DNA from: Pelomonas sp. Root1217
GTDB lineage: Bacteria; Pseudomonadota; Gammaproteobacteria; Burkholderiales; Burkholderiaceae_C
NCBI RefSeq assembly: GCF_001425705.1
Contig: NZ_LMDC01000023.1
Location: 411,079-475,078, forward strand
Length of the DNA: 64,000 nucleotides
Reading direction: 5' to 3'
The translations under genes and the position numbers were made by a program. A model generated the notes under the pieces. The model did no database searches. It was not told where the DNA came from and saw only the letters and a program-made list of their open reading frames with translations. Below are positions 1 to 42,024 of this stretch, one piece after another; positions within the stretch are counted from its first letter, which is position 1, and each line of letters begins with the position of its first letter.

Positions 1-71
1 GCAAGGGCGCCTTGGGCGCCCAACCGCCGCCGGCAAAGACCGGCGCGGGAGCCCACAAAAAGAAGAACAAT

Positions 72-287: not shown

Positions 288-375
288 GGAGCGCCCCGCG
301 GTCACCGGCCGCATCAGACGCCGGCACGGCCACGTGCTCGGCCTCCCGTCTAACTTTCGCAACGGAGCCCCACAC

Positions 376-642: not shown

Positions 643-776
643 GCCCTTGCGGCTCAAGCCCCGCTCAAACCCCGAATCGGCCGCCATGGCATGCCTGGCG
701 GCCGTTTCCATTGGTGCGTCCATTGGTGCGCTTGCAACATCCAAGCTCGCGCCCACCGCGTAGGCTTGGCGTGCTC

Positions 777-2751: not shown

Positions 2752-2848
2752 GGCCGGGAGTGTCGCCGGGGCGCAAATGCCCTTTTGATCGGGGTTCACT
2801 AAACTCTCGCCCTTTTTCCTCGCGCGCCCATACAGGCGCGCCAGCCCC

Positions 2849-3523
2849 ATGCAAGCCCTCCCACCGCAGCCCCTCGCACCCGAGCCCCTGGCCCGGCTGC
2901 TGCTGCAATGGGGCGTCGCACCGGTGGCTGCTGGGCCGGTGGCCGAGCGCCTGGGCGGCTGGCTGGGTTGGGCGGAGGCCATCGGCCTGTCCCAGTTGCT
3001 GGCCACGGCGCCTGCTGCCGGCGCCAACGCCGCCGCCCGCCGAGAGGCCATGGACTGGGCCGATGCCGCGCTGGCCCGACTGCAGGAAGAGCTGACCGCC
3101 GCCTTCGACGACGCCCTGCTCGCGCGCGAATCCGCCGAAGCCGCGCCAGACGGCGTGCCGCTGGCCGACCTGCTGGCGCCCTACCGCCTGCACCACGCCC
3201 AGCAGCAGCGCAACATGGCCGCGCGCGTGGCCACACTGCGCGAGCGCCTGCGCCCCCGGCTGGCCGAAGCCTCGGGTGCATTGGCCCGGCTGGCCCAGCT
3301 GGATGCGGTGTTCGAGCGTGCCATCGTCGTGCAGGAGCGCCCGCTGTTGGCCGGCCTGCCCGCGCTGCTGACGAAACGCGCGACAGATCATCACGCCGCC
3401 GACCCGCGCCGTTGGCGCACCCGCTTCTGGGCCGACCTGCAGCGCGCGCTGCGCGCCGAGCTGGACCTGAGATTGCAACCGGTGCAGGGGCTCATTGAAG
3501 CCCTGCATCAAGCTGAATCCTGA
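2849..3523 (+). CDS. DUF3348 family protein
   Basis: A 224-residue, Ala/Leu-rich, largely helical protein without signal peptide or membrane segment, assigned to DUF3348 from its content and from its place as first gene of the DUF3348-DUF802-OmpA-DUF2894 block known in Burkholderiales. No catalytic motif is visible. Its TGA overlaps the ATG of the DUF802 gene by one base (TGATG), so the two are translationally coupled. A role as a cytoplasmic accessory of the stator-like pair downstream is inference from synteny only. Confidence 0.75.
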   Translation: MQALPPQPLAPEPLARLLLQWGVAPVAAGPVAERLGGWLGWAEAIGLSQLLATAPAAGANAAARREAMDWADAALARLQEELTAAFDDALLARESAEAAPDGVPLADLLAPYRLHHAQQQRNMAARVATLRERLRPRLAEASGALARLAQLDAVFERAIVVQERPLLAGLPALLTKRATDHHAADPRRWRTRFWADLQRALRAELDLRLQPVQGLIEALHQAES

Positions 3524-6036
3524 TGAACCGCTTCCTGAACGTCCTCTATTCCCTCGCCCTGGCCGCCGGCCTCGCGGGCATTGCCGGCGCCGCGCTGGCC
3601 GCCGCCCGCCACCACCCGGTGGCGCTGGCAATGACGCTGCTGATCGCGGCCTTCTTTGCCATCGGCATCTGGGAGCTGACCGCCTTTCGCCGCAGCAGCC
3701 GCGAGCTGGATGCCGCGCTGGACGCCGAGCCGAAAGAGGGTTGGGTCGCGACATTGCCCGCCGCCCTGCGCGCCAGCGTGCAGCAGCGCCTGGAAGGCCT
3801 GCGCGTGGCCCTGCCCGGCCTGGCTCTCGCGCCGGCGCTGGCCGGCCTGCTGGTGCTGCTGGGCATGCTGGGCACCTTCATCGGCCTGGTCATCACATTG
3901 AGCAGCACGGCCAGTGCCCTGGGCCAGACGGCCGATCTCGCCGCACTGCGCACCGCACTGAGCGCGCCGGTGCAGGGCCTGGGCCTGGCCTTCAGCGCCA
4001 GCGTGGCCGGCGTGACGGGCTCGGCCATGCTGGGCCTGATGGTGGCGCTGGCACGGCGTGAACGCGCGGCCGTGTCGGGCCAGCTCGACACCGCCCTGCT
4101 CGGCAAGCTGCGCCCGCTGACCGCCGCGCACCGCCGCGCACTGGAGCAGCAGGCCACCGAAGCTGCCGCGGCTGAAGCGGCGCAGCAGCGCCAGCTTGAA
4201 CTCGTCGCCCAATTGCAGCTGCATGCGAAACAGATGGCCGACCTGCTCGCCGCGCAGAACGACCGCTTCCACGGCGAGACCCACCAGGCCTATGCCGCGC
4301 TGGCCGCCAGCGTGGACACCACCTTGCGCAGCAGCCTGGCCGAGAGCGCCCGCCTGGCCGGTGCCGCCATCCAGCCCGCCGCCGAAGCCGCAATGGCCGG
4401 CATTGCCCGCGAGGCCGCCGCCCTGCATGAGCGCGTGGGCACGCAGGTGGCCGGCCAGCTCGGTGCGCTGAGCAGTCGCTTCGAAGCCGGCGTGGCGCAA
4501 ATCGCCCAGCAGGGCGAGGCCGCTGCCGACGCACAAGCGGAGGGCCTGGCCCAGCAGCGCGAGGCCGCACTGAAACTGCTGGCCGACACGGGCGCCGCCA
4601 CGCAGCAGGCGGTGGATCGCCTGGGTGAACGCTGGGCCGCGCAGGCGCAAGACCTGTTGGCCGCACAGGCGCAAGCCGACACTGCCCGCGCCGCCGCGCT
4701 GGGCCGCCAGATTGACGCGCTGGCCGAGCAACGTGCCGCCACCCAGCAAGCCATCGCCGACACCGCCGAGCGCTTTGCCGCACAGACGCAGACGCTGCTG
4801 GACCGCGTGGCCGAGGCGCAAGCCCGGCAGCAGGTCCTGCAAGCCGAGCTTGACACCCAGCGCCGCGCCGAGTCCCAGGCCGACGCCGAGGCGCTCGCAC
4901 AGCAGCGCGCCGCCAACGAGCAGTTGCTGGCCGCCCAGCGCGAGGCCGCGCAACAGCTGCTGGCCGACAGCGGCGAGCGAGCCCAGAATGCGCTGACCGC
5001 GCTGACCACCGGCTTCTCCGCGCAGACCAGGGACCTGCTGGACCGCATCGCCGACACGCAGACCCGCCACGCGGCGCTGCAGGCCGAGCTGGACAGCCAA
5101 CGCCGCGCCGAGGCCCGCGCCGACGCCGAGGCCCTGGCCCGGCAACGCACCGCCAACGAACAGCTGCTGATCGCCCAGCGCGAAGCCGCGCAGCAACTGC
5201 TGGCCGCCAGCGGCGAACGTGCCCAGAGCGCCTTGACCGAGCTGACCGCCGGCTTTGCTGCGCAGACACAGGCCGCTGTCACCACGCTGGCCGAGGCACA
5301 CACGCAGCTGCAATCGGCCCATGCCGCGCACGATGCCGAGCGCCTGGCCGCATGGCGCACCGAACTGCAGTCGGCCGGCGCCACGCAGTTGGCCCAGCAG
5401 CAGCAACTGGCCGATGGCCTGCTGCGGCACACCCGCGAGCTGGTCGCGCAGACCGAGGCCCAGGCCAAGACCACGCTGAGCGAAGCCGGCGCGTTGCTGC
5501 AGGCCGCCGGCGAAGCCCCACGCGCAGCCGTCGAAGTGGTTGCCGCGTTGCGCGAGCAATTGGCACAGAGCCAGGCCCAGGACCGCGCGGCCCTGGCCGA
5601 GCGCGCCGAACTGATGCAGACGGTCTCGACGCTGCTGGCCTCGCTGCAGCAAGCCGCTGGTGAACAGCGCGCTGCCATCGATGCCTTGGTGGCCAGCTCC
5701 GCCACCCAGCTCGAAGCCCTGGGCCAGCACTTCACCGCGCAGGCCGACGCCACCGGCGAGAAGCTGGCCGAAGCCGCGACGACCCTGGCCGCCAGCGCCG
5801 CCGAGATGGGCAGCCTGGGCGAAGGCTTTGGTGCGGCGGTGGAGCAGTTCCAGGGCGCCAATGCCCAGTTGGTGCAGCACCTGGCCGCGCTGGAAGAGCG
5901 CCTGGCCGGCGCGATGACGCGCAGCGACGAACAGCTGAGCTATTACGTGGCCCAGGCGCGCGAGGTCATTGACCTGTGCCTCGGCTCGCAGAAGCAGGTG
6001 CTGGACGCGCTGCAGGGAGCTGCCGCGAATGGATGA
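3523..6036 (+). CDS. DUF802 protein: MotA/TolQ-like membrane protein with long coiled-coil tail
   Basis: An 837-residue protein. The N-terminal ~180 residues hold hydrophobic segments at about 7-25, 32-50, 100-127 and 148-175. The last two carry LGMLGTFIGLVITL and GLAFSASVAGVTGSAMLGL, the pattern of the pore helices of MotA/TolQ/ExbB ion channels. Residues ~210-830 are a Gln/Ala/Glu-rich coiled coil with near-identical repeats of about 80 residues (nucleotides 4858-5337). The tail should lie in the cytoplasm. The next gene encodes the MotB/OmpA-type partner, overlapping by 8 bases. The architecture resembles ZorA of Zorya; function in this family is unknown. Confidence 0.8.
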   Translation: MNRFLNVLYSLALAAGLAGIAGAALAAARHHPVALAMTLLIAAFFAIGIWELTAFRRSSRELDAALDAEPKEGWVATLPAALRASVQQRLEGLRVALPGLALAPALAGLLVLLGMLGTFIGLVITLSSTASALGQTADLAALRTALSAPVQGLGLAFSASVAGVTGSAMLGLMVALARRERAAVSGQLDTALLGKLRPLTAAHRRALEQQATEAAAAEAAQQRQLELVAQLQLHAKQMADLLAAQNDRFHGETHQAYAALAASVDTTLRSSLAESARLAGAAIQPAAEAAMAGIAREAAALHERVGTQVAGQLGALSSRFEAGVAQIAQQGEAAADAQAEGLAQQREAALKLLADTGAATQQAVDRLGERWAAQAQDLLAAQAQADTARAAALGRQIDALAEQRAATQQAIADTAERFAAQTQTLLDRVAEAQARQQVLQAELDTQRRAESQADAEALAQQRAANEQLLAAQREAAQQLLADSGERAQNALTALTTGFSAQTRDLLDRIADTQTRHAALQAELDSQRRAEARADAEALARQRTANEQLLIAQREAAQQLLAASGERAQSALTELTAGFAAQTQAAVTTLAEAHTQLQSAHAAHDAERLAAWRTELQSAGATQLAQQQQLADGLLRHTRELVAQTEAQAKTTLSEAGALLQAAGEAPRAAVEVVAALREQLAQSQAQDRAALAERAELMQTVSTLLASLQQAAGEQRAAIDALVASSATQLEALGQHFTAQADATGEKLAEAATTLAASAAEMGSLGEGFGAAVEQFQGANAQLVQHLAALEERLAGAMTRSDEQLSYYVAQAREVIDLCLGSQKQVLDALQGAAANG
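4858..5337 (+). repeat. tandem ~240-bp in-frame repeat in the DUF802 gene
   Basis: Two consecutive units, each about 80 codons, begin QRRAES (4858) and QRRAEA (5098), exactly 240 bases apart. They share the order DAEALA, ANEQLL, QREAAQQLL, SGERAQ and GF-AQT. Weaker copies extend upstream. The repeats lengthen the predicted coiled-coil tail in steps of a fixed heptad phase. Confidence 0.8.
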
Positions 6037-6682
6037 GCCGCTGGAGATCGAGCAGGAAGGTGTCGGCACGCCCGCCTGGGCCGCGTTCGGCGACCTGATG
6101 GCCGGTGTGCTGGGCGCCTTCGTGCTGGTGCTGGCGGCGGCGCTGGTGGGCCAGCTGGATCTCGCCAACCAGCTCAAGGCCGAGGTGGAGCAGCGCCAGG
6201 CCGAGCAGGCGCGCCGCGAAGCACTCGAGCGCGCGCTGGCCGGCCCGCTGGCCGACGGCCGCATCACGCTGGTCGAAGGCCGCATCGGCATCAGCGGCGC
6301 GGTGCTGTTCGCCATCGGCTCCGACCAGCTGCACGCCGACGGCCGCGCGCTGATCAAGAGCCTGGCCGTGCCGCTGCGCACCTATCTTGCCCAGCGCGAC
6401 GAGATCCTGATGGTCAGCGGCTTCACCGATGACCGCGGCATGCTGACCGGCAAGGGCGCGCCGAAGTTCAGCGACAACTGGGAGCTGTCGGCCCAGCGCG
6501 CATTGACGGTGACGCGCACGCTGATGGCCGAGGGGCTGCCGCCGGACGCGGTGTTTGCCGCCGCCTTCGGGCCGCAGCAGCCGGTGGCGTCCAACGACGA
6601 CGCGTCGGGCCGCGCGCTGAACCGCCGCGTCGAGATCGCACCCACGCCGCGGCCCAGGCGGGCGGCGGCATCGGCCCCGTGA
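6029..6682 (+). CDS. OmpA/MotB-like peptidoglycan-binding protein
   Basis: A 217-residue protein with one N-terminal membrane helix (about residues 19-44). The segment FGDLMAGVLGAFVLVL matches the MotB pattern with a membrane aspartate (Asp22), the residue that carries the ion in MotB-type stators. A short coiled coil (residues 48-70) leads to an OmpA-type domain with GFTDDRG, WELSAQRALTV and RALNRRVEI, the peptidoglycan-binding residues. It starts inside the DUF802 gene (8-base overlap) and is followed by DUF2894 through TGATG. Together with DUF802 it probably forms a membrane stator; this is inferred from fold similarity. Confidence 0.85.
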   Translation: MDEPLEIEQEGVGTPAWAAFGDLMAGVLGAFVLVLAAALVGQLDLANQLKAEVEQRQAEQARREALERALAGPLADGRITLVEGRIGISGAVLFAIGSDQLHADGRALIKSLAVPLRTYLAQRDEILMVSGFTDDRGMLTGKGAPKFSDNWELSAQRALTVTRTLMAEGLPPDAVFAAAFGPQQPVASNDDASGRALNRRVEIAPTPRPRRAAASAP

Positions 6683-7194
6683 TGGACGACCCCGTCGCCT
6701 GGGTGCAAGCCCGGGCCGAAGTCGATCCCGTGCGCCGGCGCGTGCTGGACGCGCTGGCGCGGCGGGCGTCTGCGCTGGCGCCGGGCGCGCTGCGCGAACG
6801 GCTGGTTGCGCGGCTGGTGCAGCGCGCCGAGGCTGAGCCGGTCGCGCTGCCGGTGCGTCGGACTGCAAACGCCACAAGCCCACTGACCGAACTTGTCGCC
6901 CAGTTGCAGGCCGGTCCCGAGCTACGCAATGTGCAGGCCCACCGCCGCACCTGGAGCGCGCTGCGCCTGACGCGCCGCATGGCCGAGGTCAGCGCACCGG
7001 TGCCCGAACACCTGGGGCCGCTGAACAGCCAGGTGCTGGTCTCCCGTGCGCTGCAGCAGTTGCAGGCCCTGTCGCCCGACTATCTGCAGCGCCTGCTGAC
7101 CCAGATCGATGCACTGGCCGCACTGGCACCGCTGCAGGTTGCCGCCGAAAGCGATGCCAGGCCGGCCCGCAAGCCCGCCGCTCGGCGGCGTTGA
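6682..7194 (+). CDS. DUF2894 family protein
   Basis: A 170-residue, Arg/Ala/Leu-rich helical protein with no signal peptide or membrane helix. It is the last gene of the DUF3348-DUF802-OmpA-DUF2894 block. Conserved-looking features are WSALRLTRRMAEV and LGPLNSQVLVSRAL, followed by a basic tail ending ARRR. The ATG at 6682 overlaps the OmpA stop; a GTG at 6679 would add one residue. No enzymatic motif is visible. Its strict coupling to the stator-like pair suggests it acts with them; the molecular role is unknown. Confidence 0.75.
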   Translation: MDDPVAWVQARAEVDPVRRRVLDALARRASALAPGALRERLVARLVQRAEAEPVALPVRRTANATSPLTELVAQLQAGPELRNVQAHRRTWSALRLTRRMAEVSAPVPEHLGPLNSQVLVSRALQQLQALSPDYLQRLLTQIDALAALAPLQVAAESDARPARKPAARRR

Positions 7195-7277
7195 CGCGCA
7201 CAGCAGCTCGCTGCTGACAGGATCTGACAGGGCTCGGGCGCGAAGATGACAACGCTGCCAACCCTCCAGCCTGCCGC

Positions 7278-7922
7278 ATGACGCCCATCCTCTACTTCTC
7301 CCGCAACCCCAACCCACGCCTGGCCGTCGCGGCGGCGAAGTATTTGGCCGCGCCGGTCACCTACGAGTTCGCCGCGCCGTTGGCCCCCGGCCAGGCAGAC
7401 AACTACCGCCATTTCAATCCCTCGCTGCGCCTGCCCATCCTTGTCGAGGCCGACGGCAGCTCACTGTTCGAGGCGGATGCCATCGCCTGCCGCCTGTCGC
7501 AGATGGTGGGCTCGGAGTTCTGGCGCACCGGCGCGGAGCTGCCGGACATGATCCGCTGGATCAGCTGGAGCCGCGACAACTTCATGCATGCCTGCGACAT
7601 GGTGCACTTCGAGCGCGGCACCAAGCAGCGCTACAAGCTGGGCGCGCTGGACGAAGACCTGGTGGCGCGCGGCACCGAGCGCTTCCACGCGACCGCATCC
7701 ATCCTCAACGCTCACCTGAGCAAGCAGGACTGGCTGCTGGCCAGTGGCCTGTCCTACGCCGACTTCCGCATGGGCGTCTTCCTGCCCTACAACGATGTGG
7801 CCCAACTCCCGCTGAGCGACTACCCGGCCGTGGCGGCATGGCATGCGCGGCTGATGACGCTGCCGGCCTGGGCCGATCCGTTTGAGGGGCTGAGCGCGCC
7901 GGAGTTGCCGCCTGTGGCTTAG
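7278..7922 (+). CDS. glutathione S-transferase-like protein
   Basis: A 214-residue cytosolic protein with an N-terminal thioredoxin-like domain (PILYFSRNPNPRLAV; cis-Pro in LRLPILVE; the S/EADAI glutathione-contact segment at about residue 65) and a C-terminal helical GST domain containing the LSYADFRMGV N-capping-box region. It probably conjugates or reduces with glutathione; the substrate is unknown. A small inverted repeat (CAGCAG/CTGCTG, 7201-7216) lies upstream but has no T-tract, so it is not called a terminator. Confidence 0.82.
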   Translation: MTPILYFSRNPNPRLAVAAAKYLAAPVTYEFAAPLAPGQADNYRHFNPSLRLPILVEADGSSLFEADAIACRLSQMVGSEFWRTGAELPDMIRWISWSRDNFMHACDMVHFERGTKQRYKLGALDEDLVARGTERFHATASILNAHLSKQDWLLASGLSYADFRMGVFLPYNDVAQLPLSDYPAVAAWHARLMTLPAWADPFEGLSAPELPPVA

Positions 7923-8079
7923 GCTCGATGCGGTTCAGCCAGGTAGTTGTCGACCGTGAGCCGACATCAAGGAGCCTGTGTTGGACGCCCCGGAGAGTCG
8001 TCCGCATGCTTCTTGGTTGATCATCTGCGATTGGCTTGCCGTGGAATGTGGGCATAAGCCCCAACGTCCACCCAGAAGG

Positions 8080-11000
8080 CTAGCCTCCGGCGAACATCAG
8101 CCGGGCGAAGGGGTCACCGAAGTAGGCGTACGACTGTGCCGTTGGATCGTCGGGCCGCTCGGCGCGCAGTTCCTGCAACGCCTCTCCAATCGTGCAGCCC
8201 GTCAGTAGCCTGGCGTAGAAGGCGACGCTGAAGGCTGCTGCGTCGGCATCGAACACTGGCCAGTACGGCGCGATTACACCGCTCCAGCCAGCTTCGATGC
8301 AGTTACCCGCGAAGCCGCCCGCCCTCGCCAACACGCGACCGGCCCGGCCCACGCTGCAGGCGTTGAGGTACAGCACCGGCTGCGCGCGGTCGCCTAGCCC
8401 GGTGGCGGCGAAGGCCATCGCGGGAATCGACTCGCCTCCCTCGATCTGCAGCGAACTCAGGTCAGCATTGGGCCCCGTATCACCGTGGCCAGAGAAGTGC
8501 ACCAGTTGCACGTCGTCCTGGCTCAGCAGGCGGTCGAGGTTGGCACGCGTGGCTGGCTGCCAGGACGCGGCCTGCGGCAGCAGCCCGCGCAGTTCCTCAA
8601 GTTCGGCCAGCGCCCAGGGCAGGCCGGCGGCTTGTGCATCGGGAATAACCAACGCCGCGTGCCGCACGAGCAGCGCCTGCGGCTGCGGCCGCGCGCCGAT
8701 GCCAGGGCGCCAGCGGCCCATTACGTGGGCCGTGCCCAACGGCGGAAGCCGCGTCCACTGGCCGTCGACGCGGCCGCTGGGCCGCACGATCTCCCACGGG
8801 AAGGACAGCTCGTCGGAGAACACGAACAGCGAGCGCGGCGGTACCGGCAGCGCCGCCAGGCGCATGTACTCGGTGCGGAAGGCCTGAGGCAGATGCAGCC
8901 AGAGCTGGTCGCCGAGGTCGCCCAGCGTGGTTATGAAGCGCCGGTTCCACGCGGCCAGCTCGCGCTCGAAGGCGGCGTCGTCGAGCGCTTCGCCGGGGAA
9001 GTCCGCGAAGCGCCTGTCCACCGCATCCGACAGGTATTGCGACAGCTCGCGTCCGTCGAGGTCGAAGCTGCCAAAGGGGCGCGACTCGTACTCGTCGCCT
9101 TCCACCACGGAGCGCACTTCGAGATCGAAGCGGCTGCGGCCGGCCTCGGGCTGGCGCACGCACAGCACAAGGTCGGCCTGTTCGCGCCGACGCGACGCCA
9201 ACAGCCGCAAGGGGTTGGAGCGCGTCGGCGGCGTGGCCCCGCCGCTCGCATGGCCGCGCGGCACCACCCGCGTGGACTGGCGCACGCCGCCGACGCACTC
9301 ATTGCCGCGCCAGAACGACACGTCCACCTGGCGCTCTACCGGCGCGGCGCCGGCGTCCAGTGCCGTCAGGGCAAAGGTGGTGAACTCCGTATTCGGGTCC
9401 CGCTCGCGTTTGACGATCAGGCGACGGCAGCGCTCGCCGTCGATGCGAAATCCGGGTGCGCTCACTTCCGCCGTCAGCTCGACCTCGGCGCTGCCGGGCT
9501 CGAAGCTAAGGCTGAGGCGGCCGGAGGACGCCTGGCGGGCTGGCGGATTGAGTGCGACGTACAGAGCTACGGTCCTGCCAGCCTCGACGCTTTGCGGGAA
9601 GCTGATCTCGGGATCACGCTCCACGTGGTTGGAATCGGAGGACGGGGCAGAGGCTGGAGTCTCCAGCCTCTCCTGGCCGGGCGCGCGTGGCCCGCGCAGG
9701 CCGCCTCTGCGTGGCTGAACGGAATCTCCCATCGCGACCGGCGCGGATTGGCACGGGAGCAGCCGCAACCGGTCGAAGAAGTCGTCGATGTGGTCCAGCG
9801 TGCGCGGCTGGGAGAAGAAGGCCGTGTGCCACACGCCGTCAGCGGCGCCGTACACCAGGGGGTCGGGAATCGGAAACGAAGGGTGCCCGTTGGCGGCGAA
9901 CACGCCCTGCTGGGGCACCACCAGGTCGTTGGCCACCGGCCGGCCGTTGCGTTCGAACACGCGGTCCATCACCCCGTTGCCCAACCGGTCGATCAACCAG
10001 CCGTTGTCGCGCCCAAGCTGGGGCTCGTAGTCAGCCGCGGCGGCGGCGTAGAACGCCGGGGCCTTGTCGGTGGCGCGGTTGAGTGTATCGACGATGTAGG
10101 ACTGGCGCGTGCCCAGACTCGCGATGCCTGGGAGACCCTTGGCAGCCGAGTGCCCGGCCAGCGCCACCAGTCCCAGCAGCACCTCGATGGAGTACGCCAC
10201 CGTGCCGTCGGGCAGGCTGGTCAGGCAGTTGGTGAACAGGTCCAGCATATCGATCATGTGATCGGCGTCGCCCAGCGGCGAGCCCGCGTTGGGTGTGCCG
10301 GCGAAGTACACGCCGCTGATGTGGCAGACGTCGTGGTCGATGAGAGCACCCGCGCGCTCGGTCAGCGAGCGCGCGACGATGCCGCCGCGGCTATGGCACA
10401 CGATGTGGAGCTCCAACGGCGCAACCGGCTTGGCATCAAACAGCATGCGCAGGAAATGCGCGGCGTTGTCCTGCGGTGAGACGCTCACCGTCGGGTGGTC
10501 GTAGGCGATCACGCGACCCTGGTAGCGCTCGTGCCAGCGCTGCATCGCCTCGCGCGGCAGGCCGTTGAGCATGCCCGAGACGGAGCTGAAGATGCCGTGG
10601 ATCAGCAGCAGCACCGGTCCGCCGCGCAATGCGTCCCAGTCGGCGAACGGCTCGGCAGACGAGTTGCGGTAGTTGTCGGGCGTCACGCGCCACACGCGTG
10701 CAGGCCGGGCGCGGTTCTCGATGTTTTCGGCCAACCAGCGCACGGGGTCCTGCAGCAGAGCCGAGGCGACCGGCAGCACCAGCACTTTGAACAGCTTGCG
10801 GCCCAGCTTGGTGATGGGACCGCGCAGGTTGCGCCGGGGCATGCCGGCGCCGAGGGCCTGGCGTGCCGCTGCGGTGCGCAGCGGCACGCGGATGCCGGGG
10901 GCCGCGGCGGCCCGTAGGCCGGGGCGTGGCGCCGTGGCGAAGTGCCAGCTCAGGCCGCCCGACTCGTCCTGATAGAGCACGACGCGAGGGGCGAGGTCGC

Positions 11001-11277
11001 CCGGTGCTCTCGCGGGCGCGATCTCGATCTCGTCGGCGGCGCCGGCCTGCAGGCGCGTCGCCTGCAATTGCAGCGTCTCCTGCACGGCGATGCCGGCCAG
11101 ACGCAGCGCGCGGTCGAACTCCGGGCTGGTGTCGATATCCGCCGGCAGGCTGCGCAGCCCCGGCGTGCTGCGTTGCTGGCGCAACTCACCGTGGCCGGCC
11201 AGCCCATGCACCGTGGTGCCGTTGGCGAAGTGCAGCGCCTGCGGCTGCGCCGGCAGGGCGATGGCTTCCTGCGCCAC
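8080..11277 (-). CDS. alpha/beta hydrolase - CHAT protease fusion
   Basis: A 1065-residue protein in three parts. Residues ~210-440 form an alpha/beta hydrolase: LLLIHGIFSS oxyanion strand, nucleophile elbow CHSRGG with Ser296, then GTPNAGSPLG. Residues ~580-720 look like a beta-sandwich. Residues ~830-1065 form a CHAT caspase-like domain with SFPWEIV, His931 in SGHGD and Cys974 in LNACSVG. Both catalytic centres appear intact. A GTG start at 11277 lies one base after the upstream GYD stop, with AGGGG about 10 bases before it; the longer reading overlaps the GYD gene and is rejected. No signal peptide or clear membrane helix. Last gene of the CHAT operon; possible effector. Confidence 0.85.
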   Translation of the reverse strand: MAQEAIALPAQPQALHFANGTTVHGLAGHGELRQQRSTPGLRSLPADIDTSPEFDRALRLAGIAVQETLQLQATRLQAGAADEIEIAPARAPGDLAPRVVLYQDESGGLSWHFATAPRPGLRAAAAPGIRVPLRTAAARQALGAGMPRRNLRGPITKLGRKLFKVLVLPVASALLQDPVRWLAENIENRARPARVWRVTPDNYRNSSAEPFADWDALRGGPVLLLIHGIFSSVSGMLNGLPREAMQRWHERYQGRVIAYDHPTVSVSPQDNAAHFLRMLFDAKPVAPLELHIVCHSRGGIVARSLTERAGALIDHDVCHISGVYFAGTPNAGSPLGDADHMIDMLDLFTNCLTSLPDGTVAYSIEVLLGLVALAGHSAAKGLPGIASLGTRQSYIVDTLNRATDKAPAFYAAAAADYEPQLGRDNGWLIDRLGNGVMDRVFERNGRPVANDLVVPQQGVFAANGHPSFPIPDPLVYGAADGVWHTAFFSQPRTLDHIDDFFDRLRLLPCQSAPVAMGDSVQPRRGGLRGPRAPGQERLETPASAPSSDSNHVERDPEISFPQSVEAGRTVALYVALNPPARQASSGRLSLSFEPGSAEVELTAEVSAPGFRIDGERCRRLIVKRERDPNTEFTTFALTALDAGAAPVERQVDVSFWRGNECVGGVRQSTRVVPRGHASGGATPPTRSNPLRLLASRRREQADLVLCVRQPEAGRSRFDLEVRSVVEGDEYESRPFGSFDLDGRELSQYLSDAVDRRFADFPGEALDDAAFERELAAWNRRFITTLGDLGDQLWLHLPQAFRTEYMRLAALPVPPRSLFVFSDELSFPWEIVRPSGRVDGQWTRLPPLGTAHVMGRWRPGIGARPQPQALLVRHAALVIPDAQAAGLPWALAELEELRGLLPQAASWQPATRANLDRLLSQDDVQLVHFSGHGDTGPNADLSSLQIEGGESIPAMAFAATGLGDRAQPVLYLNACSVGRAGRVLARAGGFAGNCIEAGWSGVIAPYWPVFDADAAAFSVAFYARLLTGCTIGEALQELRAERPDDPTAQSYAYFGDPFARLMFAGG

Positions 11278-11278
11278 T

Positions 11279-11605
11279 TCAGTCCTGCCCCTCGATGCCG
11301 AGCACTTCCCGGGCCATCTTCTTGGCCTGGGCAATGCCCTCAGGCGTGACCAACGATGTGCTGCGGATGCCGTGCACGCGGCCCAGCGTGTACTGCGCCA
11401 TCAGGCAGGCGAGCGCCGTGTCGTTGTCCGGGAACTCGGCGATGGCCATGCCGTCGTAGTCTCCCAGGCAGAAAAAGAAGTGGTGCAGCGTGCCCCCGAA
11501 GGCTTCGGTGGCATTGCGGACGTCGTCGGCGCGCTCGGTCTCTTCGGCCAGCATCCGCTTGACCTGATCGTCCTTGTAACGCCATTGGTGCAGGTACATC
11601 GGCAT
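11279..11605 (-). CDS. GYD domain protein
   Basis: A 108-residue protein with the GYD/ferredoxin-like pattern: MYLHQWRYKDDQVKRM first strand and helix, then FFFCLGDYDGMAIAEFPD containing the family's G-[DE]-YD signature. GYD proteins are small dimeric alpha+beta barrels whose roles are mostly unknown. It lies between a membrane protein (27 bases away) and the CHAT-hydrolase gene (stop and next start separated by one base), so it is co-translated with a CHAT protease. A sensor or adaptor role is speculation. Confidence 0.8.
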   Translation of the reverse strand: MPMYLHQWRYKDDQVKRMLAEETERADDVRNATEAFGGTLHHFFFCLGDYDGMAIAEFPDNDTALACLMAQYTLGRVHGIRSTSLVTPEGIAQAKKMAREVLGIEGQD

Positions 11606-11632
11606 GGCCAGCTCTCTGGTGGGGTGTTCGGT

Positions 11633-13207
11633 TCAGCCCTGCAGGACAGGGCGCAGGCGCGCCGATGTGGGCGCGGCCATCGTTTCGGGTGGGACCACGG
11701 GCTGCTCACCGCGAGCCAAGTGGGGCACGACCGCGCCAATGATGGCGCCGAAGCCAAGCGAGAACAGCACGTTGAAGAGCACGTCGATCAGGTCGGGAGT
11801 GCCCCGCTGGATGACGCCAGTGAAGATCAGCGCCTGCAGCAGGGCCGAGACGGCCATCCATGCGCAGCCCATGGCCAGTGCGTCGCACAGCCTGCGCCGC
11901 AGGGGCGAGAGGCGCCGCCAGCGGTGGTCCTGGATGAGCCAGGCCAGCATGGCCGCCGTCGTGAATGGGGACAGCGTGAAGAAGCGGGCTTCCTTCAGGC
12001 GCGCGACAACACCTTCCCAACCATTGGTCAGCGAGCCGGCGACAAGGTTGATCAGCAGCATCGCGACAACGGAGGCCAGCCCCGCCGCAACGACGAATGT
12101 CACCGGGGTGCGCCGCGTGAGGCCGGCATTGGCGAATCCGAAGTGCAGCTTGGGCATGATGGCGCTGGCCAGCGCGCCGACCTGGGTGGTCAAGATGACG
12201 ATGAACAGTTGGGGTTGGCTCAGCACGTTGCTGGGCAGGCGCGGCGCCAGCCAGAAGTACACCCCCAGCCCGAAGAACAGCACAAGGACGCCTTGCAGCA
12301 GCCCGCCGTAGACCCGGGGCGTGGGCTCAGGTGTCAACTCGAATCCCATGCACTGCAAGGCCTCGTCGCGTCGGCCCGCGCTGCGGTGGACGGTGAAGGC
12401 CGCGCGCGCGCACAGCAGGCTGGCATCGAGCAGGAAGGCGTTGGCGTCTTCGCAGAGGCCGGCCAGCGAGTCGTGCACCATCGCGCGCAGCAGTTTGTCG
12501 GTTTCCTCGTCCTGGGCCGCGCTGGGCGACGCCTCGCTGAACTGCAACCGCAGTTCGCCCACCCGCTCGATGGACTTCAGCGCCCGCGCCGAACGCAATG
12601 TCAGGCGGTGGAAGCACTGGCGCAGCTCGTCGAACTCGTTGCGGGCCTCCAGCAGGAAGGCGCCGTACCGGCTGTTCTCCTCCCATTCGCGGATCTGCAG
12701 GAACAGCTCCGTGGCGCGCATCAGCAGTCGGTATGCCGGCTGAGTGATGGGCAGCGGGTCAGACTGCGGATCAATGCCGCTGCGCAGCAGCATGACCAGC
12801 GCCCGCTCCGCCCGCTCGGGTGGACTGCGGAAGTTGGCATCCACCAGCCTCTGCGCTTGGCGGTGCGCCTCGGCGGGCACATTGGCGATGCGCAGCAGCA
12901 ACAGGTTGCGTATCGGCCGCGACAGCTGCGGGGCGAGGATGGTACAGACGGTCAGGCCCATGGCGCACCAGGTCGATGTGCCCCCGGGCGGTGCGGGCTT
13001 GAAAGCACTGAACAGGCGGTGCAGCACGGCGGCAAGCAGCAGGAACAAGAACAGGAAGCCCAGCACGTTCAGCGCCGCGGCCGAATCGCTGCGCCAGCGC
13101 GTGGTGTAGCTGCTCACCCAACTCGGCCGGTACCAGGCCGTCAACGCGATCACGACGACGAGCAGGGAACCCCCGATCGCCCGCCTCCATATGTAGAACT
13201 CTTCCAT
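11633..13207 (-). CDS. polytopic membrane protein of CHAT operon
   Basis: A 524-residue protein that I do not recognise. Hydrophobic segments lie at about residues 10-28, 46-66, 80-95, 300-320, 333-355, 372-395, 412-430, 443-470 and 478-500, with a helical, charged soluble region between ~105 and 295. This gives a membrane-soluble-membrane layout of eight or nine helices. No transporter, nuclease or gasdermin signature is visible. It sits 13 bases downstream of one CHAT gene and upstream of the GYD gene. It may be the membrane target or effector of the CHAT proteases; this is inference from position only. Confidence 0.75.
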   Translation of the reverse strand: MEEFYIWRRAIGGSLLVVVIALTAWYRPSWVSSYTTRWRSDSAAALNVLGFLFLFLLLAAVLHRLFSAFKPAPPGGTSTWCAMGLTVCTILAPQLSRPIRNLLLLRIANVPAEAHRQAQRLVDANFRSPPERAERALVMLLRSGIDPQSDPLPITQPAYRLLMRATELFLQIREWEENSRYGAFLLEARNEFDELRQCFHRLTLRSARALKSIERVGELRLQFSEASPSAAQDEETDKLLRAMVHDSLAGLCEDANAFLLDASLLCARAAFTVHRSAGRRDEALQCMGFELTPEPTPRVYGGLLQGVLVLFFGLGVYFWLAPRLPSNVLSQPQLFIVILTTQVGALASAIMPKLHFGFANAGLTRRTPVTFVVAAGLASVVAMLLINLVAGSLTNGWEGVVARLKEARFFTLSPFTTAAMLAWLIQDHRWRRLSPLRRRLCDALAMGCAWMAVSALLQALIFTGVIQRGTPDLIDVLFNVLFSLGFGAIIGAVVPHLARGEQPVVPPETMAAPTSARLRPVLQG

Positions 13208-13220
13208 GGCGTCCCACCTC

Positions 13221-14510
13221 TCAGGCGTTCGGAAGCAGCCGCCGCAACGCGGCCTGCGCGTTGCGGCGGCGCGCGTCGTGGTCTTCCTTGGGGGGAGCCG
13301 GCTGGGGCGTCACCGCCAGCAGCGGGACGGGCCGCGAAGGCGTGGGCTCCACCGGCACCGGGTGCGGCGGGCGCTTGACGTCGAAGAACAGATCGGCGCC
13401 CATGCGCGTGAACAGCACGGGAATGCCCCATTCGACAGGGTTCTCCACCTGCATCGCGACGCGGCCGATGGTGAGCGCCTTCTCCACCGTCTGGCCGGTC
13501 ACCAGCGCGTTGTAGAAGCGACTGGCGAAAGACACGGCCGCTTCGTTGGACACCGGGAACTGCATCGCCACCGAGGCGGCGATGCCCGAGCGCACCAGGG
13601 CTTCGCCGGGGCTTGCGCCACAGCCGCTGTCGCAGCAGTTGAGCACCGCCAGGCGCAGATGACCCGCAGTTCGCAGAATCCTCGCCAGTTGCGTGGGCGT
13701 GATCTTCTTCGCGCCGCCCTTGCCGTCGCCGAACACCAAATAGCCCTCGGTGTGACGCGTGCCATCGTCGTCAATGACCGGATCCGTGCCGCCGTGCCCG
13801 ATAAAGTGGAACACATGCCAGTCGCCTTGCGTCAGCATGTCGAGCAGGTCGTCAACCGTGTGGCCGTTGACCCAACGCAGGTTCACCATTTGTTTGCTGT
13901 TCTCGATCTTGTCGATGGCGGTCTCGATGCCGTGCTTCTCCTTGTCGAAGTCCAGCTTTTCCCACTCACCACCAGGGTCGGCGATCATGCCCAGCACGTT
14001 CAGCGGCGCCGTGATTGCCTGGAAAGCGCGCGCCGTCGCTTCATGGAAGCGCACCAGCGGCGAACGGCTGGACAGCGAGATATAAGTGCGGGCCGGGTCG
14101 CGGGAGGTCTCGTCAAAGACGTATTCCCACGGCAGTACCGCAAGTTCCGGAGGCTCCACCATCAGCTTCACCCGAAGGCCTTCGAACTGCCCCGGCTGGT
14201 TGTCGACGAACTCCAGGCTACCGTTGAAGCGGCGCGCTATGGGCTCGGCGTCCGTGAACACCGACTTGAACATGTCACCGCCGAAGTCGCGTAGCTTTTT
14301 CTCGTGCGGCGAGACTGCACCGCGTGAATTGCGCAGACGGCCCCGCAGGATCGCGTTCTCAAGCTCCAGTCGCAGCTCGCGATGGCTTTGTTCGAACGGC
14401 CACTTCCACACGGCAGGATCCGACGCGCCGATCGGTGAGCGCATCACCTGCGCCATGTACTGGTCGCCTTCGGCCCAGATGCGCAGGTCGAAGTCTTCAA
14501 ATGAGGCCAT
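13221..14510 (-). CDS. CHAT domain caspase-like protease
   Basis: A 429-residue protein and the first gene of the minus-strand CHAT operon. The N-terminal ~170 residues have the usual CHAT pre-domain with LAVLPWEYVFDE. The catalytic part shows His239 in FHFIGHGG and Cys293 in LNCCDSGCG, followed by AASVAMQFPVSNEAA and WGIPVLF, all typical of CHAT peptidases (clan CD, caspase relatives). The C-terminal ~50 residues are Pro-rich and basic. No signal peptide or membrane helix, so cytoplasmic. AGGGGG precedes the ATG at 14510. It may cleave its operon partners; substrate unknown. Confidence 0.87.
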   Translation of the reverse strand: MASFEDFDLRIWAEGDQYMAQVMRSPIGASDPAVWKWPFEQSHRELRLELENAILRGRLRNSRGAVSPHEKKLRDFGGDMFKSVFTDAEPIARRFNGSLEFVDNQPGQFEGLRVKLMVEPPELAVLPWEYVFDETSRDPARTYISLSSRSPLVRFHEATARAFQAITAPLNVLGMIADPGGEWEKLDFDKEKHGIETAIDKIENSKQMVNLRWVNGHTVDDLLDMLTQGDWHVFHFIGHGGTDPVIDDDGTRHTEGYLVFGDGKGGAKKITPTQLARILRTAGHLRLAVLNCCDSGCGASPGEALVRSGIAASVAMQFPVSNEAAVSFASRFYNALVTGQTVEKALTIGRVAMQVENPVEWGIPVLFTRMGADLFFDVKRPPHPVPVEPTPSRPVPLLAVTPQPAPPKEDHDARRRNAQAALRRLLPNA

Positions 14511-14719
14511 GTCGTCCCCCTGCGCGGCTCGAAGGCCACGTTTCGTCGTGTTACAGATGCATCACTCTGAGCGCATTGGCGACGGTGCGCATCCGCCTTT
14601 TTGGGGATGTCTCCATATAGAAAGTCCCAACGCTCGCTGCAGTGAACAAATGAACCTGAAGCAGCTGGTGGCAACTGACCGCTCCTGGCCGACAGCTGCT
14701 CTGACTGAACCAAAGTAAG

Positions 14720-15421
14720 CTAAGCCCAAGGGCCGTTGATCAGCGCTCGCGTCTCCTCGACAGCGATGCGCCACATCTGCAGCACCTCGGCGTCAGGTCG
14801 CTCATAGGCGCCGCCGAAGTTGCCATCGCCCGCCAGCTCGCGCGCCGCATCGGGCGGTAGCACGGCGTAGCGCTGGTAGTCCACCGGCGGCTTGCGTCCC
14901 TCGGGCTGAGTGACACCGGCCAAGCGCGTCCACGGCAGGTTCTCCATCCACGACGCGTGGGCGGACTGCGGGTCGATGCCTTTCACATAGGCCAGCGTCT
15001 CCGGTGAATTCCACCAGTTGTGGAAGCGCACCCGCGTGCGCGGGTGTGCGGCCATCCACTCAGCCACCGCGGCTGCCACGGGCTGGTTGCCCCCGTGGCC
15101 GTTGACGATGAGGATGCGCCGAAAGCCTTGGTGGTCGAGGCTGTCGAGCAGGTCGTGGACGACGCGCACCATCGTCTCGACCTTCAACGTGACGGTGCCG
15201 GGATAGCTCATGAAGCTCGGCGTGATGCCGAAGGGCAGCACCGGGAATACCGGCACGCCCAGCGGCTCGGCCGCTTCCACGGCGACACGCTCGGCCAGGA
15301 TGGCGTCGACCGCGAGGCTGAGATAGGCATGCTGCTCGGTGCAGCCGATGGGCAGCAGGCACCGGTCGTCGGCCTTGAGGTAGGCCTCGAGCTGCATCCA
15401 GTTCATGTCCGAAATTTTCAT
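14720..15421 (-). CDS. creatininase-family metal-dependent amidohydrolase
   Basis: A 233-residue protein of the creatininase/MftE family. The metal-binding pattern is visible: GCTEQHAYLSLAVDA near the N-terminus (Glu, His, Asp) and VNGHGGNQPV in the middle. Members hydrolyse cyclic amides or peptides (creatinine, formamidopyrimidine, mycofactocin precursor peptide). Its ATG overlaps the stop of the peptide-binding protein gene by four bases (ATGA), so it is coupled to peptide uptake. Hydrolysis of an imported peptide or lactam is likely but inferred. Confidence 0.87.
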   Translation of the reverse strand: MKISDMNWMQLEAYLKADDRCLLPIGCTEQHAYLSLAVDAILAERVAVEAAEPLGVPVFPVLPFGITPSFMSYPGTVTLKVETMVRVVHDLLDSLDHQGFRRILIVNGHGGNQPVAAAVAEWMAAHPRTRVRFHNWWNSPETLAYVKGIDPQSAHASWMENLPWTRLAGVTQPEGRKPPVDYQRYAVLPPDAARELAGDGNFGGAYERPDAEVLQMWRIAVEETRALINGPWA

Positions 15422-16995
15422 TTCACGTCCACAGCCGAATAATTGTTGAGGCCGAAGGGGCTGACCTTCATGCCGGTGACGCGCTGGCTCGTCGCAATGG
15501 CTGTCGTCGGGTAGGTCAGCGGCACCCAGGGCGCGTCATCGCGGTAGAGGGCTTGCGCGCGCCGGTAGAGCGCGTCGCGTTTGCCCTGATCGGCCGTCTC
15601 GCGCGCTTCGGCCAGCAGCGCGTCGAAGTCCTTGCGGCACCAGCGAGCGACATTGCTGCCGCCAGCCACGGCCGCGCAGGCGAAGTTGGGGGTCAGGAAG
15701 TTGTCGGGGTCGCCGTTGTCCGAGGCCCAGGCCAGCAGCGTCGCGTCATGTTCGCCAGCGCGGGTGCGTTTGAGCAGTTCGCCGAACTCCAGCGTGACGA
15801 TCTCCACCTTGACACCGATGCGCGCCCAGTCGGCCTGCAGCAGCTCGGCGGTCGCCTTGGGGTTGGGGTTGGTGGCCCCGGCGCCAGCGCGTATCCACAG
15901 TTTCAGCGCAAAGCCGTTGGCCAGGCCGGCGCGTTGAAGCAGTTCGCGGGCCTTGGCGAGGTCCTGGGGCGCCGGCCCGGCCTTGTCGTCATAGCTCCAC
16001 TGCGAGGGCGGATAGGGATTGCCGGCCGGGCTGGCCGCACCGCCATAGACGGCGCGGGCGATCGATGCGCGGTCGGTCGCCAGCCCCAGGGCCTGGCGCG
16101 CGCGGCGGTCGTCCAGTGGCTTGTGCTCCACATTCAGCCCGACAAAGGTCGTGACGAGGCCGGGGCCGGTCAGCAGCTGGAGCTTGCCGTCACTGCGGAT
16201 CTCGTCCCAGGTCTGCGGCATGGGGTAGAGGCCGATGTCGCATTCGCCGGCCTTCAGGCGCTGCAGCCGCGTCGCGGCGTCGGGCGAGATGGAGAAGATC
16301 AGCTTGTCCAACGCCACCTTGCCGCGGAAATAACCAGGGTGGGCGTCGTAGCGCACCACGGCGTCCTTCACATAGCTGCGAAAGACAAAGGGGCCGGTGC
16401 CGACCGGCCGCAAGTTCATATCTTCCATGCGGCCGGCGGCCTGCAGCGCTTGCGCGTACTCCGCTGACAGCACGCTGAGGAAGCCCATGGCCAGGTCGGC
16501 CAGGAAAGGCGCTTCGGGCCGCGCCAGCTCGATGCGCACGGTGCGTGCGTCCACCGCCGTGACGCTCTTGACCAACTGGCCGAATTGCATCGCCGCCGCG
16601 TAGTACCAGCCCTGGCGCGGCTGGCCATGCCAGCGGTGTTTGGGGTCGATCTGGCGCATGAAGCTGTAGACCACATCGTCGGCCGTCAGCGGCCGCGTCG
16701 GCCTGAACCAGGGCGTGGTGTGGAAGGCCACGCCGGCGCGCAGATGGAAGGTATAGGTCCGGCCGTCGGCACTGACATCCCAACGCTCGGCCAGGGCCGG
16801 CATCAGTTTCGTCGTGCCGGGCTCGAACTCGACGAGGCGGTTGTAGAGGGCCTCGGACGACGCATCGGCCGTGGAGTTGGCGTGGAAAAGCGAGTAGTCG
16901 AAGCCATCGGGGCTGGCTTCGGTGCAGACGGTGAGGGTCTTGGCAGAGGCCGCGACCGAGGCGGCCGTCAGCGCGAGCACGATCAGGCGTTTCAT
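15418..16995 (-). CDS. ABC transporter periplasmic peptide-binding protein (SBP family 5)
   Basis: A 525-residue exported binding protein. A signal peptide is clear (KRLIVLALTAASVAASA, cleavage near residue 20), followed by TLTVCTEASPDGFDYS. Family 5 hallmarks are GTGPFVF, the conserved lobe DDRRARQALGLATDR and the YPTTAIA C-terminal part. The family delivers oligopeptides, dipeptides or nickel to Dpp/Opp permeases. The matching DppBCDF-type genes lie 1.7 kb away on the other strand. A start at 17004 (MTDMKRL) would add three residues. The gene is translationally coupled to the creatininase-like enzyme. Confidence 0.92.
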   Translation of the reverse strand: MKRLIVLALTAASVAASAKTLTVCTEASPDGFDYSLFHANSTADASSEALYNRLVEFEPGTTKLMPALAERWDVSADGRTYTFHLRAGVAFHTTPWFRPTRPLTADDVVYSFMRQIDPKHRWHGQPRQGWYYAAAMQFGQLVKSVTAVDARTVRIELARPEAPFLADLAMGFLSVLSAEYAQALQAAGRMEDMNLRPVGTGPFVFRSYVKDAVVRYDAHPGYFRGKVALDKLIFSISPDAATRLQRLKAGECDIGLYPMPQTWDEIRSDGKLQLLTGPGLVTTFVGLNVEHKPLDDRRARQALGLATDRASIARAVYGGAASPAGNPYPPSQWSYDDKAGPAPQDLAKARELLQRAGLANGFALKLWIRAGAGATNPNPKATAELLQADWARIGVKVEIVTLEFGELLKRTRAGEHDATLLAWASDNGDPDNFLTPNFACAAVAGGSNVARWCRKDFDALLAEARETADQGKRDALYRRAQALYRDDAPWVPLTYPTTAIATSQRVTGMKVSPFGLNNYSAVDVK

Positions 16996-17049
16996 GTCAG
17001 TCATCCATTCACGAGCGAAGCGGAGTATTGCGGGCCGAGCGCTGGGCCT

Positions 17050-17194
17050 GCCATGGGCCAGAGGCCCATGGCGTTCCGTAGGCACAAGCAGTCCGCAGGG
17101 ACTGCTTGTGTCCGACTCCACCTCGCCGAGCCGGCCCGCTTGGGCGATGTGCTTGAGGCTCGATGCCGCAAGCATCGCCGTCCCCGAGGGGGAC
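17050..17194. repeat. group of four perfect hairpins
   Basis: Four inverted repeats occur within 145 bases between the binding-protein and GNAT genes. Their arms are 17050-17059/17063-17072 (GCCATGGGCC, 3-base loop), 17083-17094/17099-17110 (12 bp, CACAAGCAGTCC, 4-base loop), 17161-17166/17172-17177 (CGATGC) and 17180-17185/17189-17194 (GTCCCC). All pair perfectly. The arrangement resembles a REP/BIME-type intergenic element; none is followed by a T-tract as a terminator should be. Confidence 0.75.
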
Positions 17195-17213
17195 TGACCA
17201 GGCTCGCCCGCGT

Positions 17214-17645
17214 TCAGCGGGGCGAGATTGGGCGAGGGGCGTCACGCTTCCAGGCCATGCCCAGCGTGCGCGGCGCCGTGTGCACAAAGCCGAACTGGGC
17301 ATAAAGGGCGTCGGCCGGCACGTCGGCCAAGAGGCTGACATAGCCTGTCTCGGGCACGTGCTCGCGCAGCCAGGCGGCGATCTCGCCCATGATGCGCTTG
17401 CCCAGGCCCCGGCCCTGGTGCTCGGGCAGCACGGCAATGTCGACGACCTGGAAGGCCGTGCCGCCGTCGCCGATGACACGGCCCATGCCGACGGGCTCGC
17501 CCTCATGCAGGATCTGCACCGCGAACAGCGTACCGGGCAGGCCACGTGCGGCCGCCTCGGCCGACTTGGGGCTGAGGCCGCAGGCGACGCGCAGGTGGCG
17601 GTAGGTGTCGGCCGAGGGCGTGGCATGCAGCGTCGTGTAGCTCAT
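17214..17645 (-). CDS. GNAT family N-acetyltransferase
   Basis: A 143-residue acetyl-CoA-dependent acyltransferase. Motif A is visible as VVDIAVLPEHQGRGLGKRIM (Q/R-x-x-G-x-G/A), with the PVGMGRVIGDG strand before it and YAQFGFVHT (motif B) after it. The start at 17645 gives MSYTTLHA; an upstream ATG at 17654 would add three residues. It acts on a small molecule or peptide amine, identity unknown. It is divergently placed from the amidase and transporter genes, and its position in a peptide-uptake region makes a peptide or amino-sugar substrate plausible. Confidence 0.88.
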   Translation of the reverse strand: MSYTTLHATPSADTYRHLRVACGLSPKSAEAAARGLPGTLFAVQILHEGEPVGMGRVIGDGGTAFQVVDIAVLPEHQGRGLGKRIMGEIAAWLREHVPETGYVSLLADVPADALYAQFGFVHTAPRTLGMAWKRDAPRPISPR

Positions 17646-17773
17646 GGCAAGCATTCAACCATCACCTGCACTCATACCTGCAGCGCCCTCCGACATGGCC
17701 CCTGCGGGCTGGCCCCGGGGCCACCGGGTCGGGTGCGCTGCAACAATCCGGGTCTGGCCACGCCTTCCCTCGC

Positions 17774-18700
17774 ATGAAGTCCACCTCCCTCGTTGCCGCC
17801 ACCCTGGCCCTGCTGCTCAGCGCCTGCGCCGGCGTGCCGACGCCCCCCGCTACGCCTGCCACGCCCTCGGCGCCTGCTGCACCCTCCATGGCCGCGGGCC
17901 CTGCCGCCACCGTGCGTGCACCCAACATTGACCGCAGCTACACCTCGCAGAACCAGGACAGTCGCGCCCTCTACATCGTGCTGCACTACACCGTGCTGGA
18001 CTGGGAGAAGTCGCTGAAGGTGCTGACGACCGGCGGCCAGGTGTCGGCCCACTATCTGGTGCGCGACAACCCGGTGGCCAGCTATGCGCTGGTGGACGAG
18101 AACCGCCGTTCCTGGCATGCGGGCGCGAGCTTCTGGGCCGGCAACACCAACCTGAACTCGGCCTCCATCGGCATCGAGATCGTCAACGCCGGCCATGTGG
18201 ACGGCCCCGGTGGCCGCATCTACGCGCCCTTCCCGCAGGCCCAGGTGGACGAGGTCATCGCCCTGGTCCGCGACATCCAGAAGCGCCATAACGTCAAGCC
18301 CGAGCGCATCATCGGCCACGCCGACATCGCTCCGGGCCGCAAGCAGGACCCGGGCCCGCAGTTTCCCTGGAAGCAGTTGGCGGACGCGGGGCTGATCCCC
18401 TGGCCGGACGGGCCGCTGGTGACGGTGAAGATGCTGGAACACGAGGTGGCGCCGCGCGAGGTGGCCTGGCTGCAGGAGCGGCTGGCTCGCATCGGCTACA
18501 ACGTGTCGCGTTCCGGCCAGATGGACGTGCTGACCCGCGAGGTCATCGCCACCTTCCAGATGAAGTACCGTCCACGCGACATCTCGGGCACGCTGGATGC
18601 CGAGACGGCCGCGCTGATCGAAGTGGCATCCACGCCCACCGCGATGCGCGTGGCCGGCGCGGCGGACACGGAGACGCGGCCCTACACGTCGCGCTGGTGA
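17774..18700 (+). CDS. N-acetylmuramoyl-L-alanine amidase, AmiD-like lipoprotein
   Basis: A 308-residue lipoprotein: hydrophobic signal with lipobox LLSAC (Cys18), then an Ala/Pro linker. The Amidase_2 (type 2, zinc) domain spans ~60-210 with ligands in VLHYT (His71), GHADIAPGRKQDPG (His182, Asp192), and SIGIEIVNAG. Residues ~225-285 form a peptidoglycan-binding domain. It cleaves the MurNAc-L-Ala bond of muropeptides, probably from the outer membrane's inner face as AmiD does. It is the first gene of the transporter operon and overlaps the permease start, which suggests released murein peptides are imported. Confidence 0.9.
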   Translation: MKSTSLVAATLALLLSACAGVPTPPATPATPSAPAAPSMAAGPAATVRAPNIDRSYTSQNQDSRALYIVLHYTVLDWEKSLKVLTTGGQVSAHYLVRDNPVASYALVDENRRSWHAGASFWAGNTNLNSASIGIEIVNAGHVDGPGGRIYAPFPQAQVDEVIALVRDIQKRHNVKPERIIGHADIAPGRKQDPGPQFPWKQLADAGLIPWPDGPLVTVKMLEHEVAPREVAWLQERLARIGYNVSRSGQMDVLTREVIATFQMKYRPRDISGTLDAETAALIEVASTPTAMRVAGAADTETRPYTSRW

Positions 18701-19713: not shown

Positions 19714-19720
19714 GGCAATC

Positions 19721-42006: not shown

Positions 42007-42024
42007 GATGAACCGCCATGTGGC

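Follow-up and report, generated by a model that had tools for sequence, protein, structure and literature searches.

Genomic context and relatives of a CHAT protease-membrane protein operon in Pelomonas, a candidate conflict or cell-death system

A stretch of 64,000 nucleotides from Pelomonas sp. Root1217 (contig NZ_LMDC01000023.1, positions 411,079 to 475,078; hereafter the window) contains four minus-strand genes that a sequence-only reading of the DNA had put forward as a candidate defence or cell-death operon. The four open reading frames (ORFs) are confirmed where that reading placed them, as are the intergenic gaps of 13, 27 and 1 bases (Table 1). They encode a stand-alone caspase-like CHAT protease (CHAT1), a polytopic membrane protein (MEM) from an unnamed family, an accessory GYD-domain protein, and a large protein (gene 4) in which a hydrolase-like domain is fused to a second, C-terminal CHAT domain (CHAT2). 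An alternative and longer ORF for gene 4 begins with a TTG codon at 11334.

Both protease assignments are well above the curated Pfam cut-off for CHAT (PF12770, 24 bits), with 70.4 bits (E 2.2e-19) for CHAT1 and 55.6 bits (E 7.4e-15) for gene 4. The two catalytic dyads were predicted to be intact, and their positions are correct: the His and Cys of CHAT1 are conserved in 39/39 aligned relatives, and those of CHAT2 in 14/14, together with His227-Gly228, Ser296, Asp451 and His484 of the hydrolase. The only sequence match of CHAT1 in the PDB is 8tl0 (E 2.5e-8), named SAVED-CHAT in PMC11417357, with the His and Cys aligned. PADLOC returns SAVED_CHAT at 38.8 bits, over residues 210-410 only, and weaker BovA matches; no SAVED domain was found in CHAT1, for which Pfam gives CHAT and Peptidase_C25 only. 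There is also a weak match to the model for the cell-division protein HetF, at 29.7 bits and thus far under its cut-off of 1200. CHAT1 and CHAT2 fall into separate clades (support 100/99) of a tree that has several long branches, including the CHAT2 proteins of both the window and a Luteibacter relative, and CHAT2 therefore does not appear to be a recent copy of CHAT1.

The remainder of gene 4 had been called an alpha/beta hydrolase. Pfam assigns it to DUF7379 (PF24096, E 1.8e-38; residues 242-419 when numbered on the longer form of 1084 aa), and its Ser, Asp and His are invariant in 14/14 relatives. We take DUF7379 to be a probable alpha/beta-hydrolase because of these invariant residues and of matches below the curated Pfam cut-offs, to PGAP1 for the gene 4 domain and to Abhydrolase_6 for its Luteibacter counterpart.

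MEM has no match in Pfam, PADLOC or NCBIfam at E 0.1, its Luteibacter counterpart is also without a Pfam match, and among 22 members no Pfam family appears under E 0.019. Averaged over the family, hydropathy peaks lie at about residues 1-25, 44-62 and 77-95, with six further peaks up to residue 495, and a stretch of roughly 190 aa (about 100-295) between the first three or so and the last six or so transmembrane (TM) helices is soluble and helical; individual members show 7-10 peaks, the MEM of the window having 7. An AlphaFold2 model is nearly all-helical (pLDDT 74.7, pTM 0.55) and finds no match among PDB folds below E 0.67, which does not in itself prove a new fold. Judged by these sequence comparisons MEM is a new membrane-protein family without a Pfam model, defined here, and in every strong intact locus it stands directly behind a caspase-like protease.

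The proposal that the operon is a conserved unit is borne out by the order that its relatives share, with CHAT1 directly upstream of MEM in 38/38 strong loci with an intact MEM (33 of one genus, together with G1360, G1314, the window, Pelomonas sp. Root1237 and Luteibacter sp. OK325). It is not, however, invariably a four-gene unit, as this is only one of three layouts, and GYD and gene 4 are optional. The first layout, CHAT1-MEM-GYD-hydrolase/CHAT2, is that of the window, Pelomonas sp. Root1237 and Luteibacter sp. OK325, and the other two, CHAT1-MEM-hydrolase-CHAT2 and a TPR-bearing CHAT1 followed by MEM only, are found in a genus that is probably alphaproteobacterial. Gene order is kept in three lineages at 19-47% identity.

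Searches with MEM matched 2/299 genomes of the window's family (the window genome and Root1237), 1/321 genomes of its class (the window's own) and 1/197 genomes of Luteibacter's family. The last of these, Luteibacter sp. OK325, was found by a MEM scan of genome contigs (33% identity), and its genes run CHAT1, MEM, GYD, CHAT2, hydrolase, with 40, 33, 47, 32 and 35% identity to those of the window; Pfam confirms CHAT, GYD, CHAT and DUF7379. Gene 4 is therefore split in Luteibacter and its halves are swapped. Both halves show the same catalytic motifs, and CHAT2 carries an N-terminal TCAD7 domain (Pfam, E 3.6e-19), whereas no TCAD is present in gene 4 of the window. The GYD gene joins the next gene through TGA-C-GTG, in the same place as the TGA-A-GTG junction of the window. 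Because the hydrolase and CHAT2 have undergone fission and reordering and both have been kept, the comparison suggests that they function together.

A CHAT1 profile used against 299 genomes of the phylum added G1360 and G1314 (E up to 1e-20), both in one genus outside the window's class; the presence of a CtrA-like regulator suggests that this genus is alphaproteobacterial. In one of the two, CHAT1 and MEM are accompanied by a hydrolase-CHAT2 fusion, and G1314 has only CHAT1 with C-terminal TPRs and MEM. With a four-row MEM profile, 5/228 genomes of the alphaproteobacterial family were matched (one weakly), as were 46/223 genomes of the genus (strong matches in 36, only weak ones in 10). We examined all of the strong loci (35 and the two found earlier) and four of the weak ones. 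MEM is intact in 33/35 strong loci, with CHAT1 directly upstream in 33/33, and in the remaining two it is in two pieces, again with CHAT1 upstream. Hydrolase-CHAT2 is downstream of MEM in 11/33 intact loci and missing from 22/33, and no GYD match was seen among the ORFs called in 39 loci (35 strong, 4 weak). The CHAT1 of the two-gene form is 603-650 aa long and has TPRs in all five proteins scanned with Pfam, so that the absence of TPRs, which the sequence-only reading had listed as a distinguishing feature, does not extend to these relatives. The two MEM types of the genus share a mean of only 22% identity, and the CHAT1-MEM pairing is therefore old; given that a two-gene form exists, CHAT1 and MEM are the constant core and hydrolase-CHAT2 an add-on.

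The window genome (6.6 Mb) has a close relative within its genus, Pelomonas sp. Root1237, with which it is 97.4% identical over window positions 2764-16952. This identity is uneven: the ZorG, ZorA, ZorB, ZorF, GST and creatininase-like genes differ by 3.1-5.3%, whereas the operon and its intergenic edges are almost unchanged (Table 1), with three differences in each of MEM and CHAT1 and none in GYD or hydrolase-CHAT2. Since the cassette is near-identical while six neighbouring genes diverge, it has apparently been transferred recently into, or between, two Pelomonas species. When positions 6600-18700 were compared with 20 genomes of the genus, the operon was present, among the matches listed, only in the window genome and Root1237; a ZorF gene is found at this region in 10/10 other genus members examined, and in one genome (G698) another ORF, of 255 aa, stands between the GST gene and the creatininase-like gene. 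A dispersed repeat of about 215 bases lies at 17017-17261, with one copy in the window and many in genomes of the genus; its RNA folding is far better than that of shuffled sequences (z -6.3), and it has no Rfam match. Elsewhere in the window, positions 41000-46000 have a GC content of 57-65%, compared with about 67% outside the operon, and include a gene for a haem peroxidase of animal type (44418-45938) and, at 42591-43847, an ORF that has no Pfam match.

Proximity to known defence genes, which had been proposed as a check on the immune interpretation, is seen in the window, where a complete type III Zorya system lies close to the operon (Table 1). A system of this subtype, taken from Stenotrophomonas, gave E. 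coli protection (PMC8565338); the PADLOC names ZorG (DUF3348) and ZorF (DUF2894) are swapped relative to that paper. Immune neighbours also accompany some relatives of gene 4. On a Ruegeria pomeroyi megaplasmid a hydrolase-CHAT gene is positioned 36 bases ahead of SIR2-PtuA, which is followed by PtuB (a Septu-like pair), and these hydrolase-CHAT, SIR2-PtuA ATPase and PtuB genes (L075, 6662-13466) form a possible three-gene defence operon. Three long proteins (about 1,860-1,880 aa) from the window's order combine DUF7379, LCAT, CHAT and TPR-S; a TIR gene adjoins or lies within 4 kb of two of these (L043 and L049), one TIR-linked locus also has a C14 caspase gene, and the third locus has a peptidase gene. 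In Azotobacter a CHAT gene is located near restriction-modification genes, and in Arthrobacter the gene after a relative of CHAT1 (32%) has Trypco1, a domain named in ternary conflict systems (PMC7159879). A plasmid of Bradyrhizobium quebecense (L079, 668-8740) carries a phospholipase-CHAT cluster of patatin, DUF2252, PLD-like and unknown genes with two CHAT genes.

Table 1. Positions of the operon, of its parts and of associated features. Coordinates are those of the window unless another record is named.
Feature	Position	Strand	Details
CHAT1, stand-alone caspase-like CHAT protease	13221..14510	-	429 aa; His239/Cys293
MEM, polytopic membrane protein, unnamed family	11633..13207	-	524 aa
GYD-domain protein, accessory	11279..11605	-	108 aa; Pfam GYD PF08734, E 3.5e-17
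Gene 4, DUF7379 hydrolase-like domain fused to C-terminal CHAT2	8080..11277	-	1065 aa; GTG start
Gene 4 catalytic residues			hydrolase Ser296, Asp451, His484; CHAT2 His931, Cys974
GYD/gene 4 junction, TGA-A-GTG	11275..11281	-	gene 4 begins one base past the GYD stop
Putative transferred cassette	7914..14679	.	operon with intergenic edges; 6,766 bases, of which 7 differ in Pelomonas sp. Root1237
Type III Zorya (ZorG, ZorA, ZorB, ZorF)	2849..7194	+	complete; PADLOC E 8e-49, 1.9e-181, 1.1e-95, 9e-32
Long DUF7379-LCAT-CHAT-TPR-S gene	L042 5293-10863		
Long DUF7379-LCAT-CHAT-TPR-S gene	L043 5578-11217		
Long DUF7379-LCAT-CHAT-TPR-S gene	L049 5759-11377		

We give about an even chance to the interpretation that the operon encodes a protease-controlled, membrane-directed conflict system, acting in defence, perhaps against phages, or in programmed death. 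MEM would reside in the inner membrane as a sensor, anchor or substrate and hold CHAT1 off until infection or envelope damage is perceived, either by MEM or by the additional domains of the proteases (the TPRs of CHAT1, or the TCAD7 of CHAT2, in some members). Activated CHAT1 could then cleave MEM, gene 4, or both, and CHAT2 may be the protease of a second step, freeing or activating the fused or adjacent alpha/beta hydrolase, which would then attack membrane lipids such that the cell is stopped or killed. GYD, which is predicted to be translationally coupled to gene 4, might be a small adaptor or inhibitor of it. Because CHAT1 and MEM occur in the two-gene form without an adjacent partner, MEM could itself be the membrane executioner there. 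A more specific version, in which the operon is an initiator-executioner cascade of the caspase type, with MEM-held CHAT1 firing a separately evolved CHAT2 that unleashes its own lipase and with no gasdermin, CRISPR or nucleotide signal, is rather unlikely in our estimation.

Several observations weigh against a conflict or cell-death role. Housekeeping surroundings had been named in advance as a sign that would speak against immunity, and they are what is seen in the alphaproteobacterial genus: at 24/24 loci TPR-bearing CHAT1 and MEM have the same neighbours, genes for a CtrA-like response regulator and a FliI-like ATPase, and at 13/13 loci CHAT1-MEM-hydrolase-CHAT2 lies beside the same two-component pair. 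These sites are fixed and of housekeeping type, not defence islands, and the occasional presence of the genes there may stem from loss no less than from gain. No defence gene was recognised by eye in the flanks of the Luteibacter locus, no immune neighbour is annotated at the hydrolase-CHAT records of Paracoccus sp. TOH and of P. yeei (two records; two kinds of locus), an Ensifer record being without annotation, and no MEM match was present in the plasmids and viral contigs searched.

The same fixed sites speak for the main rival, in which the genes serve envelope-stress or cell-cycle signalling, CHAT1 being a regulated protease that acts on a membrane protein and the hydrolase remodelling lipids in a non-immune role. 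The neighbouring CtrA-like and FliI-like genes and the two-component pair all fit this idea, as does the HetF match of CHAT1, weak as it is (29.7 bits against a cut-off of 1200). It is less easily reconciled with the patchy presence of the genes, with strong MEM matches in 36/223 genomes of the alphaproteobacterial genus and 2/299 of the window's family, with the recent transfer of a whole cassette near Zorya, or with the immune neighbours of some gene 4 relatives, and we regard it as possible but on the unlikely side. Of similar standing, and overlapping with a conflict role, is the idea that the operon is a counterpart of gasdermin operons, in which CHAT1 cuts MEM to yield a pore or disruptor and hydrolase-CHAT2 is an optional second effector. 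MEM is the constant partner, and TPR-bearing CHAT1 with MEM but without gene 4 in 22/33 intact loci and in G1314 implies that the pair may suffice; MEM is nonetheless polytopic and helical, and so unlike gasdermin, and has no structural match below E 0.67. This leaves us doubtful of the gasdermin parallel.

That the operon is a loose collection, in which an ordinary polytopic protein and GYD neighbour CHAT genes but share no function with them, might be thought from the lack of GYD and gene 4 in many relatives. It is hard to square with the same order in three lineages (19-47% identity), the 38/38 adjacency, the apparent transfer as a block and the conserved TGA-N-GTG junction. The conserved order largely refutes a chance grouping, and we consider it highly improbable.

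The sequence-only reading had put the operon forward as a candidate new system. Part of this is already known, as pairing of a caspase-superfamily peptidase with an alpha/beta-hydrolase has been described in the MoxR-vWA (VMAP) ternary and GAP1-N1 conflict systems by Kaur et al. 2020 (PMC7159879), which is the closest published idea within the literature seen. Like those systems, the operon appears to pair a caspase-like peptidase with a hydrolase, fused or adjacent. TCAD7 ('ternary complex associated domain 7') is present in CHAT2 of Luteibacter, and gene 4 of the window has no TCAD; a figure legend of PMC10910872 links TCAD (ternary complex-associated domain) with vWA-MoxR-VMAP. Unlike those systems, the operon is built on the polytopic MEM and a second CHAT, and no MoxR ATPase or vWA was found by Pfam in eight neighbouring window proteins, reaching about 6.5 kb in one direction and 3 kb in the other. 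System 4 (EACC1 with a caspase) shares with the operon a membrane protein and a caspase-superfamily protease, but EACC1 has a single TM and is the 5' gene, whereas MEM is polytopic and 3' of CHAT1. The SAVED-CHAT protein of type III CRISPR (8tl0) resembles CHAT1 in sequence and differs in its SAVED domain, which by Pfam CHAT1 lacks.

In bacterial gasdermin systems, too, a protease of the CHAT type is combined with a partner that acts on membranes (PMC10197012), whereas MEM is polytopic and helical without a gasdermin match. The statement that neither gasdermin nor CRISPR is nearby stands: neither the operon genes nor any of 22 MEM members matched gasdermin, and there is no direct-repeat family (at least 22 bases, spacing up to 100) in window positions 1-20000, and no CRISPR model from PADLOC on nine flanking proteins, which gave Zorya only. 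Craspase (TPR-CHAT), which is defined by gRAMP/Cas7-11 and a CRISPR array, has a CHAT protease in common with the operon, and the TPRs of the two-gene form are on CHAT1. The hydrolase-CHAT gene upstream of the Ruegeria pomeroyi Septu genes resembles gene 4 in that its single product joins a DUF7379-like hydrolase to CHAT (tblastn), but it is partnered with SIR2-PtuA and PtuB, not with MEM. The order also lies outside the known defence set in PADLOC-DB 2023, as proposed, which gives only weak CHAT-domain matches and has no model matching MEM or GYD. The operon is not described in the literature that our search surfaced, and a role in defence is plausible. As far as its genes indicate, it is the caspase-hydrolase theme without an adjacent MoxR/vWA, to which MEM and a second CHAT are added, such that two distinct CHAT proteases would be wired to one hydrolase. 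If so, a loose 'caspase plus hydrolase' pairing becomes a compact and clonable set of two to five genes, and one that would show how bacterial cell death combines caspase-type cascades and lipases.

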